DNA of 64,000 bases, taken from positions 22,480-86,479 of the forward strand of contig JALFTC010000027.1 in NCBI GenBank assembly GCA_022779485.1, in the 5' to 3' direction. This DNA is from Ruminococcus sp. Lineage in GTDB: Bacteria; Bacillota; Clostridia; Oscillospirales; Acutalibacteraceae. This document shows, one piece after another, positions 10,355 through 63,543 of the stretch (position 1 is its first letter; the number at the start of each line of letters is the position of its first letter). The notes below the pieces were generated by a model. That model ran no database searches, had not been told where the DNA came from, and saw nothing but the letters and a program-made list of their open reading frames with translations. Position numbers and translations under genes: made by a program.

Positions 10355-10981
10355 ATGAGAAAAAAAGAAAGAGCTTTGCTGGCTGTTGAGGCTTTAAAAA
10401 AGGAATTTCCCGATGCAATATGCTCCCTTACATACAGCGACCCGTTACAGCTACTTGTGGCAACAAGACTTGCCGCCCAATGCACAGATGCAAGGGTGAA
10501 TATGGTAACCCCCGACCTGTTCGCAAAATACCAAAATGCACAGGATTTTGCAAACGCTGATGTAAAGGATGTTGAAGAATTAATAAAATCCTGCGGACTT
10601 TACAAAACCAAGGCAAAATCCCTTGTGGATATGGGCAAGGCTTTAACGGAAAATTACGGTGGTGTTGTGCCGGATACAATAGAAGAGCTTATAAAACTCC
10701 CCGGAATCGGCAGAAAAACAGCTAACTTGATTGTGGGGGATATTTTCGGCAAGCCTGCCGTAGTGGTTGACACCCACTGCATAAGAATTACCAAAAGACT
10801 TGGTTTACATCAGGAAAAAGACCAAAAGAAGATTGAATTTATCCTTAGGGATTTGCTTCCGCCTGAGGAAAGCAACGATTTTTGCCACAGGCTTGTCCTC
10901 CACGGAAGAAAAACCTGTGACGCTCGAAAGCCAAAGTGCGAAAACTGCTGTATGAAGGACTTTTGCAAGAAAAATATATAG
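10355..10981 (+). CDS. nth: Endonuclease III
   Basis: HhH LPGIGRKTANLIVGD, VVVDTHCIRI, C-terminal Fe-S cysteines CDARKPKCENCCMKDFC. Confidence 0.94.
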   Translation: MRKKERALLAVEALKKEFPDAICSLTYSDPLQLLVATRLAAQCTDARVNMVTPDLFAKYQNAQDFANADVKDVEELIKSCGLYKTKAKSLVDMGKALTENYGGVVPDTIEELIKLPGIGRKTANLIVGDIFGKPAVVVDTHCIRITKRLGLHQEKDQKKIEFILRDLLPPEESNDFCHRLVLHGRKTCDARKPKCENCCMKDFCKKNI

Positions 10982-11057: not shown

Positions 11058-11939
11058 TTATTTACCGCTGTGACTAAAGAACCACAGCTTATTGTTATAG
11101 GCAAACATCACTATTGCCATTGCAACAATTATCACATAGCCCACAACGGAGAGTAAATCCGGCACATCTCCAAAGACGAAGAATCCAAGACCTGCCGCAA
11201 AGATAATTTGGCTGTAATCGTAAACAGAAACCTCTTTTGCGGGGGAATAGGTGTATGCCGCTGTAATAGCGAACTGTCCTCCGGCGGCAGATACACCTGC
11301 CATAAGGAGGGCAAAAAGCTGAAAGGGTGTGAACATCTCAAAGTTCATAATCATTAACGGCAACAGCACAGCAGCACTAAAGCCTGAGAAAAACAAAACA
11401 ATAAAACTACCCTTTTCACCTCTTATGCCAAGGTACCTAACCATTGTATAGGCAAGTCCTGCACACATTCCGCCGATAAAACCAAGGAATGAGGGCAACC
11501 ACTCTGCGTTGGAAAAATCAGGCTTTATGACAAACACAGCGCCGATAAATGCTCCCACAACAATAAGCCCCTGTGGCAAAGTCAGCTTTTCCTTTAGTAT
11601 TATAAAAGAAAACAGTATTACAAAAAATGGCGACATTTTGTTAAGGATTGATGCGTCACTAAGCACCAAGTGGTCAATAGCATAAAAGTTGCAAATTATT
11701 CCAAGCACACCAAAGCAGGACCTTAAAATTAGGGGCGGAAGATTTTTTGGGTTAAAATGAAAGTCCTTTCTGTCCTTCAGCATCATAAACAGAGCCACAA
11801 AAAACGCCACAAAGTTCCTGAAAAAAGCCTTTTCAAAGGTGGGCAAATCCCCCGAAAGCTTAACAAACATATTCATAAGGGCAAAGCAAAAGGCTGAAAT
11901 TATGATATATACTATGCCCCTGTACTTCTTATCAATCAT
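11058..11939 (-). CDS. EamA/DMT-family transporter
   Basis: Ten-TM pattern with two EamA-like halves. Confidence 0.85.
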   Translation of the reverse strand: MIDKKYRGIVYIIISAFCFALMNMFVKLSGDLPTFEKAFFRNFVAFFVALFMMLKDRKDFHFNPKNLPPLILRSCFGVLGIICNFYAIDHLVLSDASILNKMSPFFVILFSFIILKEKLTLPQGLIVVGAFIGAVFVIKPDFSNAEWLPSFLGFIGGMCAGLAYTMVRYLGIRGEKGSFIVLFFSGFSAAVLLPLMIMNFEMFTPFQLFALLMAGVSAAGGQFAITAAYTYSPAKEVSVYDYSQIIFAAGLGFFVFGDVPDLLSVVGYVIIVAMAIVMFAYNNKLWFFSHSGK

Positions 11940-12015
11940 CTTTTACACTTCTTTTCTCTTTTTCTCTTCCAAACAAGATAATTATAGCACATTGAAAATA
12001 AGTGTCAAATTAGTC

Positions 12016-12044
12016 TTGACATTTATCTTTTTAAGGCATATAAT
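12016..12044 (+). promoter_or_regulatory. Consensus sigma-A promoter for the trp operon
   Basis: TTGACA (12016-12021), 17 bp, TATAAT (12039-12044). Confidence 0.85.
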
Positions 12045-12045
12045 C

Positions 12046-12224
12046 TTAAGGAAACACTGAATAAATCACAATTAAAATTTATTTACACATCTTGTTTGCA
12101 TATTTTCCGCCATTTTGCCCAAAAAATCCTCACAATGCGTCAGCATTCCTGCAGTTTTTTGAACAAACTGACGAAAAATCTGACGGCACAATATGTGCAA
12201 ATAATTTAATCAGTGTTTCCTTAA
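12046..12224. repeat. Full MITE-like element, copy 1
   Basis: TTAAGGAAACACTGAATAAATCA ... AATTTAATCAGTGTTTCCTTAA inverted termini; interior closely matches the element at 63377-63543 (e.g. GCCCAAAAAATCCTC, CAGTTTTTTGAACA). Confidence 0.85.
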
Positions 12225-12244
12225 CAAATAAATATTATGTCACA

Positions 12245-12498
12245 AACCGTTGACCGAGAGTGAGTAGGCTTTACAGATGTTTTCAGAGAGTTGCCGTTTG
12301 GTGGAAGGCAACAGCGGAAGTTTTGCTGAATGGGCTCGGGAGGGCAGGCTGAAATTACAGTAGGTACTGACGGAAACCTCTACCGTTATCTTGAGGAGTA
12401 TGTGTTAGCATATGTTAGAGTGGGTATTTATACCAATTTGGGTGGCACCGCAGAAGTTACAGGCTTTTGTCCCTTTTTAGAGGACAAAGGCCTTTTTT
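12245..12498 (+). ncRNA. T-box leader, tRNA-Trp (UGG specifier), upstream of trpE
   Basis: T-box motif TTTGGGTGGCACCGCAGAA at about 12437; AGTA, AG-bulge/distal-loop-like motifs (CAGAGAGTTGCCGTTTGGTGGAAGGCAACAG); GAA-TGG specifier at 12331-12333 next to CCGAG/CTCGG pairing; terminator GGCTTTTGTCC/GGACAAAGGCC plus T-run. Confidence 0.92.
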
Positions 12499-12555: not shown

Positions 12556-14010
12556 ATGTACACACCGGGCTATGACGAAATAAATCGTTACAAAGACTAT
12601 GATGTTATCCCTGTTTCAAGGGAGATTTATGCCGACATCATCACACCAATTACACTACTTCGCAAAATCGCAGACAAATACAAGAACTTTTATCTGCTGG
12701 AAAGCATTGAGGGCGGTGAAAAGTGGGCAAGGTACAGCTTTTTCGGCTTTGACCCAAAGGCAAGACTGTACTGCAAGGACGGTACCGTCACAATAGAGGG
12801 TGAGGGTGCTAATGTAATCAAAACAGAAAAGCCTCTCCATGTGCTTAGGGAATACATCAGCCACTACAAAACACCAACATTTCATGGCAATCCACCATTT
12901 ACAGGAGGTCTTGTAGGCTACTACGGTTACTCTATGATTGGCTATGCCGAGCCTACATTAAAACTAAAGTCCAGCGAATTTAACGACTTTGATGTTATGC
13001 TTTGCGACAAAATAATCGCCTACGACCATCTTAAGCAAAAGATAACTGTAATTGTAAATATGAAAACTACTGATATGAAATCTCAGTACGAAAAGGCTGT
13101 CAGGGATATTGATGAAATCGTTGATATGATAAACGACCCAACTCCCCCATCAAAGCTCAGTTCGTATGAAAATGTTTCATTTCAGTCCAATTTTTCAGAG
13201 GAAGAATATGCACAAACTGTGGAGAAAACACGGGAATATATCTTTAACGGAGATATTTTTCAGGCTGTTATCTCAAGGCGGTTTGAAACCCCATATGAGG
13301 GTTCTCTTTTAAACGCATACAGAGTGCTTAGAGTGACAAATCCCTCACCATATATGGTGTTTATGAAAATCGGCGACAACGAGATTATATCCACTTCTCC
13401 CGAAACCTTGGTTAGGTACAAAAACGGCAGACTTACAACATTCCCTATTGCAGGCTCTCGTCCAAGGGGTAAAACAGAAGAGGAGGATTTGGCTCTTGAA
13501 AAGGATTTGTTACAGGACGAGAAGGAGCTTTCCGAGCACAATATGCTTGTTGACCTTGGCAGAAACGACCTTGGCAAAATCTCAAAGTTTAATTCTGTTG
13601 AAGTGACGGAATATATGCAAATTCTTCGCTACTCCAAAATTATGCACATCTGCTCCGAAGTGCAGAGTGACGCAAGGGATGATGTTGACGCATTTGACGC
13701 TATCGAGTCAGTTCTACCGGCAGGTACACTTTCAGGCGCACCAAAGGTGAGAGCCTGTGAAATCATTGAGGAGCTTGAAAAATGCCCCAGGGGTATTTAC
13801 GGTGGCGCAATCGGCTATGTTGACTTTAACGGAAATATGGACACCTGTATCGCAATAAGAATGGCGTCTAAAATCAAAGACAAGGTTTATGTTCAGGCAG
13901 GCGGTGGAATTGTTGCCGACAGTATTCCTCATAACGAATATATGGAAAGCTACAACAAGGCGCTTGCTGTTATGAACGCAATAAAAAACGCAGGGGAGGT
14001 TGACAGGTAA
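12556..14010 (+). CDS. trpE: Anthranilate synthase component I
   Basis: Chorismate-binding motifs FPIAGSRPRGKTEEED, LVDLGRNDLGKI, GAPKVRACEII. Confidence 0.96.
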   Translation: MYTPGYDEINRYKDYDVIPVSREIYADIITPITLLRKIADKYKNFYLLESIEGGEKWARYSFFGFDPKARLYCKDGTVTIEGEGANVIKTEKPLHVLREYISHYKTPTFHGNPPFTGGLVGYYGYSMIGYAEPTLKLKSSEFNDFDVMLCDKIIAYDHLKQKITVIVNMKTTDMKSQYEKAVRDIDEIVDMINDPTPPSKLSSYENVSFQSNFSEEEYAQTVEKTREYIFNGDIFQAVISRRFETPYEGSLLNAYRVLRVTNPSPYMVFMKIGDNEIISTSPETLVRYKNGRLTTFPIAGSRPRGKTEEEDLALEKDLLQDEKELSEHNMLVDLGRNDLGKISKFNSVEVTEYMQILRYSKIMHICSEVQSDARDDVDAFDAIESVLPAGTLSGAPKVRACEIIEELEKCPRGIYGGAIGYVDFNGNMDTCIAIRMASKIKDKVYVQAGGGIVADSIPHNEYMESYNKALAVMNAIKNAGEVDR

Positions 14011-14582
14011 TGATTTTACTAATTGACAATTACGACAGCTTTTCCTACAACCTTGTACAGCTTGCGGGAAGTATAAACCCTGATATTAATGTAGTGCGAA
14101 ACGACAAAATAACAATTACGGACATTGAAAAAATGAATCCCACCCACATAATAATTTCCCCCGGTCCGGGCTACCCAAAGGACGCAGGAATTTGCGAGGA
14201 GGTTATAAGCTACTTCAAAGGCAAAATCCCAATTTTAGGTGTTTGCCTTGGGCATCAGGCGATTTGTGAGGTTTTCGGCGGAGAAATTACCCACGCAAAA
14301 AAGCTGATGCACGGCAAGAAAAGCACCGTAAGCATTGATAATACCTGTAAAATTTTTGATGGAATTGGCAAAGCCCTTGAGGTTGCAAGGTATCATTCAC
14401 TGATAGCAAAGAGCGAAACTCTCCCCGAGGAACTGAAAGTCATTTCAACAGACGATATGGGCGAAATTATGGCGGTAAAGCACAGGGATTACGAAATTTA
14501 CGGACTCCAGTTCCACCCCGAAAGCATCCTAACCACAGACGGTGAAAAAATGCTGGAAAACTTTTTAAAAATAACAATATAA
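14010..14582 (+). CDS. trpG: Anthranilate synthase component II (glutamine amidotransferase)
   Basis: MILLIDNYDSFSYNLVQ, GVCLGHQAI, LQFHPES; TAATG overlap with trpE. Confidence 0.96.
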   Translation: MILLIDNYDSFSYNLVQLAGSINPDINVVRNDKITITDIEKMNPTHIIISPGPGYPKDAGICEEVISYFKGKIPILGVCLGHQAICEVFGGEITHAKKLMHGKKSTVSIDNTCKIFDGIGKALEVARYHSLIAKSETLPEELKVISTDDMGEIMAVKHRDYEIYGLQFHPESILTTDGEKMLENFLKITI

Positions 14583-14611
14583 ATTTTAGCAACAGATAAG
14601 GTGTGACAATT

Positions 14612-15622
14612 ATGATAAAAGAGGCTATTTCTCAGGTTGTCAAGGGTGAAAGCCTTGACCTTGAAACTGCAAAGACAGTAATGAACGAAATTATGGAGGG
14701 TGAAGCAACCAACGCACAAATTGCCTCCCTCTTAACAGCAATGATGATGAAGGGCGAAACTATTGACGAAATCACAGCATTTGCATCGGTTATGCGTGAC
14801 AAGGCTCTCCACATCAACCCAAAGGGTGATGTTATGGAGATTGTAGGCACAGGCGGTGACGGTTCGGGTACATTTAACATCTCCACCACCTCGGCATTTG
14901 TAATTTCAGCAGGCGGTGTGCCTGTTGCAAAGCATGGCAACCGTTCAATGAGTTCAAAGAGCGGTTCTGCCGACTGCCTTGAAAATATGGGTGTTGACCT
15001 TTCAATCACTCCCGAAAGAAGCGAGGACATTCTAAACCAATGCGGAATGTGCTTTATGTTTGCACAGGGCTACCACAAGTCTATGAAGTATGTTGCCCCT
15101 GTCAGAAGGGAAATCGGAATTCGCAACATATTTAACATTCTCGGGCCTCTCACAAACCCTGCAAACGCCAATATGCAGGTTATGGGTGTTTTCACTAAGG
15201 AGCTTTGCAAGCCTTTGGCACAGGTGCTTATTAACCTGGGTGTTAAAAAGGGTATGGTTGTGTATGGTCTTGACGGAATTGACGAGGCAACAGTAACGGA
15301 CAAAACCTACTGCTGTGAAATTAAGGGCGGAGAAATCAAGGACTACTACATCACCCCGGAAGAAATGGGACTTAAAAGGTACAGTGTGGATGAACTTTTA
15401 GGCGGTGACGGCAAGGAAAACGCACAAATTGCAATAGGCATTCTCAAGGGCGAAACAGTAGGAGCAAAAAGAGATGCTGTTCTCCTAAACTCAGGAATTG
15501 CCCTTTATGTTGCCGGCAAAGCCGACTCTATAAAGGCGGGAGTTGAACTGGCAGGAAAAATAATTGATGAGGGCAAGGCATTCAGCAAAAAAGAGGAATT
15601 TGTTGCCCTTACAAACGAATAA
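14612..15622 (+). CDS. trpD: Anthranilate phosphoribosyltransferase
   Basis: VGTGGDGSGTFNIST, KHGNRSMSSKSGSAD. Confidence 0.96.
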   Translation: MIKEAISQVVKGESLDLETAKTVMNEIMEGEATNAQIASLLTAMMMKGETIDEITAFASVMRDKALHINPKGDVMEIVGTGGDGSGTFNISTTSAFVISAGGVPVAKHGNRSMSSKSGSADCLENMGVDLSITPERSEDILNQCGMCFMFAQGYHKSMKYVAPVRREIGIRNIFNILGPLTNPANANMQVMGVFTKELCKPLAQVLINLGVKKGMVVYGLDGIDEATVTDKTYCCEIKGGEIKDYYITPEEMGLKRYSVDELLGGDGKENAQIAIGILKGETVGAKRDAVLLNSGIALYVAGKADSIKAGVELAGKIIDEGKAFSKKEEFVALTNE

Positions 15623-15636
15623 TGTAGGAAAAAGCT

Positions 15637-16425
15637 ATGACAATACTAAATGAAATTGCAAATTATACAAAAGAACGATATAATAGGTTGAAAAACACAG
15701 TTCCTTTAGAGGAAATCAAAAGAAAAGCACTCTCAATGGACAGTAACACAGTCTTTCCTTTCAAACAGGCACTTGCACAAGGGGGAATTTCCTACATCTG
15801 CGAGGTGAAAAAGGCAAGTCCCAGCAAGGGTGTTATTGCAGAGGATTTTCCATATCTGCAAATAGCAAAGGACTACGAAAATGCAGGTGCATCTGCAATC
15901 TCCTGCCTTACAGAGCCAAAGTACTTTTTAGGCAGTGACAAATATTTAGAGGAGATTGCAAGGGAAGTGAAAATCCCTGTTTTACGCAAGGATTTCACAG
16001 TTTGCCCCTATCAAATTTATGAGGCAAAGGTGCTTGGAGCGTCAGCAATTTTGCTAATATGCGCTTTGCTCACAGAGGATGAGTTGAGGGAATATTTAAA
16101 GATTGCCCACTCCTTGGGACTTTCCGCTTTGGTGGAGGCTCACACAAAGGATGAGGTTATGACAGCCCTTTCCATTGGTGCAGAGATAATCGGTGTAAAC
16201 AACCGTAACCTAAAGGACTTTACCGTTGACCTTGACACCTGCATTAATCTAAGGAAATATGTACCAAAGGACATAATTTTTGTTGGTGAAAGCGGTATAA
16301 AGGACAACAGTCACATTGAAAAATTAAGGTCAGCCGGAGTTGACGCTGTGCTGATTGGCGAAACCCTTATGAGGAGCGACAACAAAAAAGTTGCCCTTGA
16401 AAAACTTAACGGTTCACCGCTTTAG
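15637..16425 (+). CDS. trpC: Indole-3-glycerol phosphate synthase
   Basis: ICEVKKASPSKGVI, GVNNRNLKDFTVDL; monofunctional length (262 aa). Confidence 0.96.
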   Translation: MTILNEIANYTKERYNRLKNTVPLEEIKRKALSMDSNTVFPFKQALAQGGISYICEVKKASPSKGVIAEDFPYLQIAKDYENAGASAISCLTEPKYFLGSDKYLEEIAREVKIPVLRKDFTVCPYQIYEAKVLGASAILLICALLTEDELREYLKIAHSLGLSALVEAHTKDEVMTALSIGAEIIGVNNRNLKDFTVDLDTCINLRKYVPKDIIFVGESGIKDNSHIEKLRSAGVDAVLIGETLMRSDNKKVALEKLNGSPL

Positions 16426-16474
16426 AATAAAAGAGCATTGATTTTAAATGTAAAAGAGATAAGGAGAGAACAAA

Positions 16475-17659
16475 ATGTCAAAAGGAAGATTTGGCAAGCA
16501 CGGGGGTCAGTTTATTCCCGAAACCCTGATGAATGCCATTATTGAATTGGAGGATGCCTACAACAAATACAAGGACGACCCTGAATTTGTAAAGGAGCTT
16601 ACCACCCTCTTAAACGACTACGCAGGCAGACCGTCACGACTTTACTATGCGGAAAAAATGACAAAGGACTTGGGCGGTGCTAAGATTTATCTTAAGAGAG
16701 AGGACCTTAACCACACAGGAAGTCACAAGCTGAACAATGTTTTAGGTCAGGTTCTACTTGCCAAAAAAATGGGCAAAACAAGGGTAATTGCGGAAACAGG
16801 CGCAGGTCAGCACGGTGTGGCAACCGCCACAGCCGCCGCCCTTATGGGTATGGAATGTGAAATCTTTATGGGTAAGGAGGACACAGACCGACAAGCACTT
16901 AATGTTTACAGAATGAAACTACTTGGTGCAAAGGTACACGCAGTAACAAGCGGTACAATGACCCTAAAGGACGCAGTCAACGAAACCTTCCGTGAGTGGA
17001 CAAACAGAATTGACGACACCCACTATGTAATCGGCTCTGTTATGGGTCCTCACCCATTCCCTACAATGGTAAGGGATTTCCAAAGTGTTATCAGCAAGGA
17101 GATAAAAAGTCAAATACTGGAAAAGGAAGGCAAGCTCCCCGATGTTGTAATGGCTTGTGTCGGTGGTGGAAGTAACGCAATGGGTGCATTTTACGAATTC
17201 ATCCCCCACGAAGAGGTACAGCTAATCGGTTGTGAGGGTGCCGGAAAGGGTATCCATACCGAAAAAACAGCCGCCACAATGTCCACAGGCAGGGACGGAA
17301 TTTTCCACGGTATGCACAGTTACTTCTGTCAGGATAAGTTCGGTCAGATTGCTCCTGTTTATTCCATATCCGCAGGACTTGACTACCCCGGAATAGGCCC
17401 TGAACACGCCTACCTTCACGACATAGGCAGGGCAAAATATGTTCCTGTTACAGATGACGAGGCGGTTGACGCCTTTGAATACCTTTCAAGAACAGAGGGA
17501 ATTATCCCGGCAATAGAGTCCTCACACGCAGTTGCCCACGCAATCAAGCTGGCGCCCACTATGGACAAGGACAAAATCATTGTTGTAAATCTTTCAGGCA
17601 GAGGCGACAAGGATGTAGCCGCCATTGCCCGTTACAGAGGGGAGGATATTTATGAGTAA
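16475..17659 (+). CDS. trpB: Tryptophan synthase beta chain
   Basis: [34 protein letters not shown]. Confidence 0.97.
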
Positions 17660-18422
17660 AATTGCAGATGCTTTCAAAAAGGGAAAAGCCTTTATTCCCT
17701 TTATCACAGCAGGCGACCCAAGCCTTGAAATTACAGAACAGCTACTTATTGAAATGGACAAAAACGGTGCTGACATTATCGAGGTGGGCATACCCTTTTC
17801 CGACCCTGTTGCAGAGGGAATAGTAATTCAGGAGGCTGACATAAGGGCATTGGCAGGCGGAACAACCACAGACAAAATTTTTGAAATGCTCCTAAAAGTT
17901 CGACCAAAGCTTTCCTGTGCAGTTGCAATTATGACCTACATAAACCCTGTTTACGGCTACGGCACAGACAAGTTTTTGTCAAACTGCGAAAAGGCAGGAG
18001 TTGACGCACTTATAGTACCCGACATTCCTTATGAGGAAAGAGATGTTGTAAAGCCTTACTGCGAAAACCACGGAGTTGACTTCATCTCCTTCGTTGCCCC
18101 AACAAGCCACCAAAGAATCAAGACTATTGCAAAGGATGCACAGGGCTTTATGTACTGCGTTTCTTCCCTTGGAGTTACAGGTGTAAGGCAAAATATTACA
18201 ACCAATATCGGGGAAATGATTGACCTTGTAAAGTCTGTTAACGACATTCCCTGTGCTGTGGGATTTGGAATTTCCACACCGGAACAGGCAAAGGAAATGG
18301 CTAAAAATGCCGACGGAGTAATTGTAGGCTCAGCCATAGTTAAAATTTGTGCAAAATACGGCAAGGACTGCGTTCCATATGTAGCCGACTATGTAAAGAG
18401 TATGAAAGAGGCTATTTCTTAA
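17652..18422 (+). CDS. trpA: Tryptophan synthase alpha chain
   Basis: [27 protein letters not shown]; start at ATG 17652 overlapping the trpB end. Confidence 0.96.
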
Positions 18423-24638: not shown

Positions 24639-24678
24639 TTAGGGAAACACTGATTAACTTATTCTGTGTTTCCCTTGA
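24639..24678. repeat. Minimal (ends-only) copy of the TTAAGGAAACACTGA element between convergent genes
   Basis: TTAGGGAAACACTGATTAACTTATTCTGTGTTTCCCTTGA. Confidence 0.55.
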
Positions 24679-63380: not shown

Positions 63381-63543
63381 GGAAACACTGAATAAATCAC
63401 TTTACACATCTTGTACGCATATTTTCTGCCGGTATGCCCAAAAAATCCTCGCAATACGCCAGTATTCCTGCGGTTTTTTGAACATACCGACAAAAAATCT
63501 GACTGTACAATCTGTGCAAATGATTTAATCAGTATTTCCTTAA
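63377..63543. repeat. Full MITE-like element, copy 2
   Basis: TTAAGGAAACACTGAATAAATCA...TGATTTAATCAGTATTTCCTTAA; interior as in 12046..12224. Confidence 0.85.

Follow-up and report, generated by a model that had tools for sequence, protein, structure and literature searches.

MITEs of the IS5 type have short terminal inverted repeats beginning with GG and no coding capacity, they produce 4-bp duplications that are mostly YTAR (PMC10359306), and they are present in multiple dispersed copies, mostly intergenic. The element described here shares these characters. It differs from them in that 5 of its 20 clean duplications lie off YTAR and in that the genomes searched yielded no IS5-type transposase whose ends match. 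The Correia/NEMIS elements of Neisseria offer a second comparison. They are MITEs of 100–200 bp that occur in mRNAs as long stem-loops and are cut there by RNase III (PMC10969869, PMC2229807). Our element is of the same kind in size and fold, its transcription being predicted, but it has different ends, another host, and another target, and the available portions of those papers describe no T-box context for Correia/NEMIS.

Two other systems touch on the T-box itself. The BOX elements of Streptococcus pneumoniae are dispersed repeats that are discussed together with T-box motifs (PMC10969869). Potential T-box motifs are said to lie within the BOX repeat, whereas our repeat is separate from the complete trp T-box and precedes it. 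Trp T-box leaders (RF00230) have, like the one studied here, a complete T-box with a UGG specifier ahead of trpE. They differ from the leader in the window (the whole stretch of 64,000 nucleotides that was analysed), which has 175 nt of element-derived sequence between the promoter and stem I. In the literature that was searched, no case turned up of a MITE inserted into the leader of a T-box or another riboswitch.

The trp leader of the window and its empty counterpart

The window belongs to a draft genome of 52 contigs (2.02 Mb). The promoter of its trp operon (plus strand, 12016 to 12044) was identified by a promoter scan with a score of 12/12. It consists of TTGACA at 12016 to 12021, a spacer of 17 nt, and TATAAT at 12039 to 12044, and is indeed the perfect sigma-A-type promoter ending at 12044 that the first-pass annotation had reported. 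The −10 box is followed by one C, a TTAA that forms the left target-site duplication (12046 to 12049), the 171-bp MITE in plus orientation (12050 to 12220) with its terminal inverted repeats GGAAACACTGA...TCAGTGTTTCC, the right TTAA duplication (12221 to 12224), CAAATAAATATTATGTCACAAACCGTTGACC, and then the T-box. The limits previously given to the element, 12046 to 12224, hold for the element plus both duplications, and the element proper is confined to 12050 to 12220. A divergent promoter on the minus strand (11981 to 12008), also scoring 12/12 in the scan, precedes a gene for an EamA-type transporter (11058 to 11939, Pfam match) and is undisturbed by the insertion.

The T-box leader matches the Rfam covariance model RF00230 at 12241 to 12477 on the plus strand, with 109.7 bits (E 2.4e-23; gathering score 93). 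Stem I starts from about 12247, close to the 12250 proposed earlier. The specifier triplet is TGG (UGG, Trp; 12331 to 12333), in a GAATGG motif conserved in relatives. The UGG specifier, GGGTGGCACCGC, and the terminator are all present in the T-box alignment, which places the leader in RF00230. The terminator hairpin, AGGCTTTTGTCCC...GGACAAAGGCCTTTTTT, was read from the sequence on the plus strand, with approximate limits at 12460 and 12499, and is conserved in the alignment. Downstream, on the same strand, lie trpE (anthranilate synthase component I; PF04715 and PF00425; 12556 to 14010) and trpG, trpD, trpC, trpB, and trpA (Pfam matches; 14010 to 18422), in the order trpEGDCBA and with intact frames. 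The operon is followed by a convergent gene for a class I tRNA synthetase of the Trp/Tyr family, which is probably trpS.

We compared this locus with that of a sister species, an Oscillospiraceae metagenome assembly (L066, JAQXVY010000046.1) that is also a draft and whose TrpE is 98% identical. At the trp leader, the sister contig reads GGGCATATAATCTTAACAAATAAATATTATGTCACAAACCGTTGACC, with a single TTAA. This is an exact empty site, and it matches letter for letter the TATAATC-TTAA-CAAATAAATATTATGTCACAAACCGTTGACC that had been predicted for the state before insertion. The TTAA is doubled in the window and single in the sister, as in a MITE insertion. An alignment of the 331 nt that run from the element to trpE shows 8 mismatches and one 1-nt gap between the two species, and longer aligned stretches around the leader are 92–96% identical. 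Both hexamers of the promoter and the distance between them are unchanged, while the spacer sequence has diverged. Without the element, the −10 box and CCGTTGACC are 27 nt apart; transcription starting about 7 nt downstream of that box would begin some 20 nt before stem I, as the first-pass annotation had supposed. Its figure of about 180 added nucleotides is close to the net addition of 175 nt (171 + 4). Its description of the riboswitch as working stands at the level of the letters: the stretch of 192 nt that directly follows the element is identical in the sister.

This comparison establishes an insertion with a 4-bp duplication, at a site that is empty in the sister, between a promoter and a T-box that are both intact in sequence. 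That the insertion postdates the split from the sister species is well supported by the sister's empty site, and activity of the element since that split is apparent in both lineages. Wrong joining of short reads at a dispersed repeat might produce such an arrangement, given a 52-contig draft and a repetitive element. We consider it highly improbable, because the sister's empty site joins the two flanks without a break and the TTAA duplication is an exact match; a repeat of 171 bp is also short relative to the usual spans of read pairs.

The T-box leaders of the genus give a broader view of the ancestral layout. The promoter ahead of the T-box is unusually invariant across these loci (L147 to L168), with a perfect TTGACA-17-TATAAT in 27 genus members, and the hexamers and 17-nt spacing of the window are common to these 27 other leaders. 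The AGTA anchor lies 27–40 nt after the 12/12 promoter in the 27, which exclude two leaders that were not cleanly measured (L164 and L169) and include one with no visible GAATGG specifier motif (L160); in the window, this distance is 213 nt. A Blast search with the element against the T-box loci of the genus gave a sole match (L147), on the sister's trp contig at about 1.1 kb from its T-box, and this match corresponds to the copy that the sister itself carries at the gene for endonuclease III. The element is hence found in the trp leader in one of about 28 measured leaders. The first-pass annotation had raised the objection that all relatives might carry the sequence as part of a conserved leader; the exact empty site and the absence of the element from every other measured leader of the genus answer it. 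The related proposal of an ancient, conserved segment of the trp leader that the sister has lost has a negligible probability: all cleanly measured relatives have the short leader, the duplicated TTAA and the dispersed copies (at least 41) show insertion, and nothing was found in its favour. A rival promoter downstream of 12224, the other objection raised at that stage, did not appear either, as the scan gave no plus-strand promoter-like site of at least 9/12 from 12045 to the T-box.

Copies of the element and the search for a transposase

At least 41 full-length copies of the element are dispersed over the draft genome (2.02 Mb), so it is not there by chance. The inspected copies measure 159–171 bp and end in the terminal inverted repeats GGAAACACTGA and TCAGTGTTTCC, and there is no open reading frame of 60 amino acids or more within the element. 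It is thus short, dispersed, multi-copy, and noncoding, as MITEs are. Perfect 4-bp direct repeats were found in 20 of 30 inspected copies. In 15 of these 20, they fit YTAR, the target duplication motif reported for IS5 (PMC10359306), which agrees with the IS5 group, and the remaining 5 depart from it. Related elements, 72–98% identical, are present in 15 of 119 other members of the genus (E 1e-20). The element is of a known kind, and the trp leader is one of the many places where it has inserted. Rfam assigned no family to it; the candidate MIR4239 was rejected at 34 bits, far under its cut-off of 100, and this match reflects only the long hairpin.

Several other copies and derivatives were observed. 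The window has a second full-length copy of 159 bp with TTAA duplications (63381 to 63539) and a very small palindrome, TTAGGGAAACACTGATTAACTTATTCTGTGTTTCCCTTGA (24639 to 24677), that resembles two element ends with almost no core. Elsewhere in the window genome (L006:1462-1703), TTTACA-17-TATAAT is followed by the element and then by a gene for a papain-family protease, an insertion that is absent from the sister. In the sister, for its part, a copy is inserted precisely at the stop codon of the gene for endonuclease III (L066:1427-1585), where the target sequence supplies the stop; the end of this gene in the window, near 10981, has no element and its flanks have slightly diverged from those of the sister. 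Many single, unpaired ends (YTAR + GGAAACACTGAWTAAATCA, about 15–30 bp) lie in intergenic regions (L074 to L093), e.g., before mreB at L075:2245. In L065 and other G006 matches, the core alone (query positions 46 to 147) is conserved and the ends that flank it are different ones, TTTTAAGGCAACACCGCACAATTC, as though MITE families had traded cores and ends. Cores 73–77% identical to that of the element also occur in four unannotated records from human faeces labelled bacteriophage (MT835572.1, MT835885.1, MT835489.1, and MT836531.1).

The searches for a mobilising transposase were negative. Profile searches of the element's own genome found neither PF01609 nor PF05598 (DUF772). Across 60 genus members, none of the 26 PF01609 or 4 PF13586 loci has the GGAAACACTGA ends. 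When the open reading frames next to 20 stretches with unpaired ends were scanned, there was no transposase among the best 25 of 87 families. The full end sequence pattern had no match in viral_contigs, and the plasmids had no match to the element. Because neither the own genome nor the genus members searched yielded an IS5-type transposase with these ends, it is the target duplication, and no further character, that suggests a link to IS5. The parent of the MITE may have been lost, may be unassembled, or may belong to another family. An IS able to mobilise the element would be expected to bear the ends YTAR-GGAAACACTGAWTAAATC.

The hairpin in the element family and in the predicted trp transcript

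The RNA of the element folds into one long hairpin (−43 kcal/mol versus −22.5 ± 3.5 for shuffles, z −5.9), in line with the foldable RNA that had been proposed for it. We studied the pairing in an alignment of 36 copies from the window genome and the sister, which includes the copy at 12050 to 12220. Standard pairs occupy 98.9% of the cells of the consensus hairpin, and slid versions of the hairpin drop to 27–47% paired. Both sides have changed in 56 cells, against 19.5 ± 3.8 in shuffles (0 of 500 as high), although these counts overstate the independent events because the copies are related. The strongest pairs switch fully, e.g., UA to AU in columns 66/118 and AU to GC in columns 88/95, with almost no G-U intermediates. 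Such complete switches may result from arm-to-arm templated copying during replication or from stepwise selection on the hairpin RNA, and the scarcity of G-U may point to the former. As the pairing covaries in copies at unrelated places, the covariation is a property of the element family and not of the trp site.

In the trp transcript, the promoter is expected to still fire, with a start at about 12050 to 12053, on the first bases of the element. With this start, almost the whole element would be transcribed as a 5'-terminal stem-loop and the 5' leader would be lengthened by 175 nt. Within the whole predicted leader, the element is expected to form only about 1.1 base pairs with the T-box part. 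Taken separately, the two parts have ensemble energies that sum to −124.4 kcal/mol, versus −124.7 kcal/mol for the whole. The stem-loop would fold by itself upstream of the T-box, so the sensing of tRNA-Trp should be unchanged. The 5' nucleotide is predicted to be paired with a probability of 0.99–1.0 for starts at 12050 or 12051, and to be about half paired for starts at 12052 to 12055. In Firmicutes, an mRNA whose 5' end is base-paired can be protected from decay that depends on this end. Such an end may here resist this decay or be cut by RNase III, and indirect effects could arise from the new initial transcribed sequence and from a slightly longer transcription time. The most economical reading of these predictions is that the insertion would affect, if anything, the initiation or stability of the transcript rather than tRNA sensing.

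Long hairpins can also pause RNA polymerase, and the sequence from about +1 onward has been replaced. The insertion might then damage trp expression, because the start region has changed or because polymerase pauses or terminates early within the hairpin, and the operon might be heading for loss. We find this very unlikely: there is no U-run after the hairpin of the element, and the T-box, the promoter, and the trpEGDCBA frames are intact. The terminator scan has no site there, a weak argument since the same scan misses the T-box terminator.

One may also ask if the element is an adaptive regulatory addition, i.e., if a 5' hairpin that stabilises the mRNA, is cut by RNase III, or changes initiation was selected through altered trp expression. 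The predicted placement of the mRNA 5' end in a stem would fit this, and so would the Correia/NEMIS elements, which are known as RNase III substrates in mRNAs (PMC10969869, PMC2229807). The copies do keep their hairpin through paired changes, but they do so at unrelated places, and a similar insertion precedes an unrelated protease gene. Since the element occupies only one of about 28 measured leaders, and one recent insertion gives no signal of selection, we hold an adaptive origin to be unlikely. A bolder version, in which the covarying hairpin is a portable RNA module that alters the lifetime or initiation of the T-box leader, adds a second layer of trp control in one species, and does the same at other genes, is a long shot.

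We favour, with a probability of roughly 85%, the interpretation that a non-autonomous MITE inserted recently at a TTAA directly 3' of the trp −10 box, left the promoter and T-box intact, and is tolerated as a near-neutral change. The two sister species then amount to a natural experiment, in which the same promoter hexamers and a near-identical T-box occur with and without a structured insert of 175 nt. This occupied/empty pair makes the tolerance of a riboswitch to extra upstream structure testable, and with it the reshaping of clostridial mRNA leaders by short mobile repeats.
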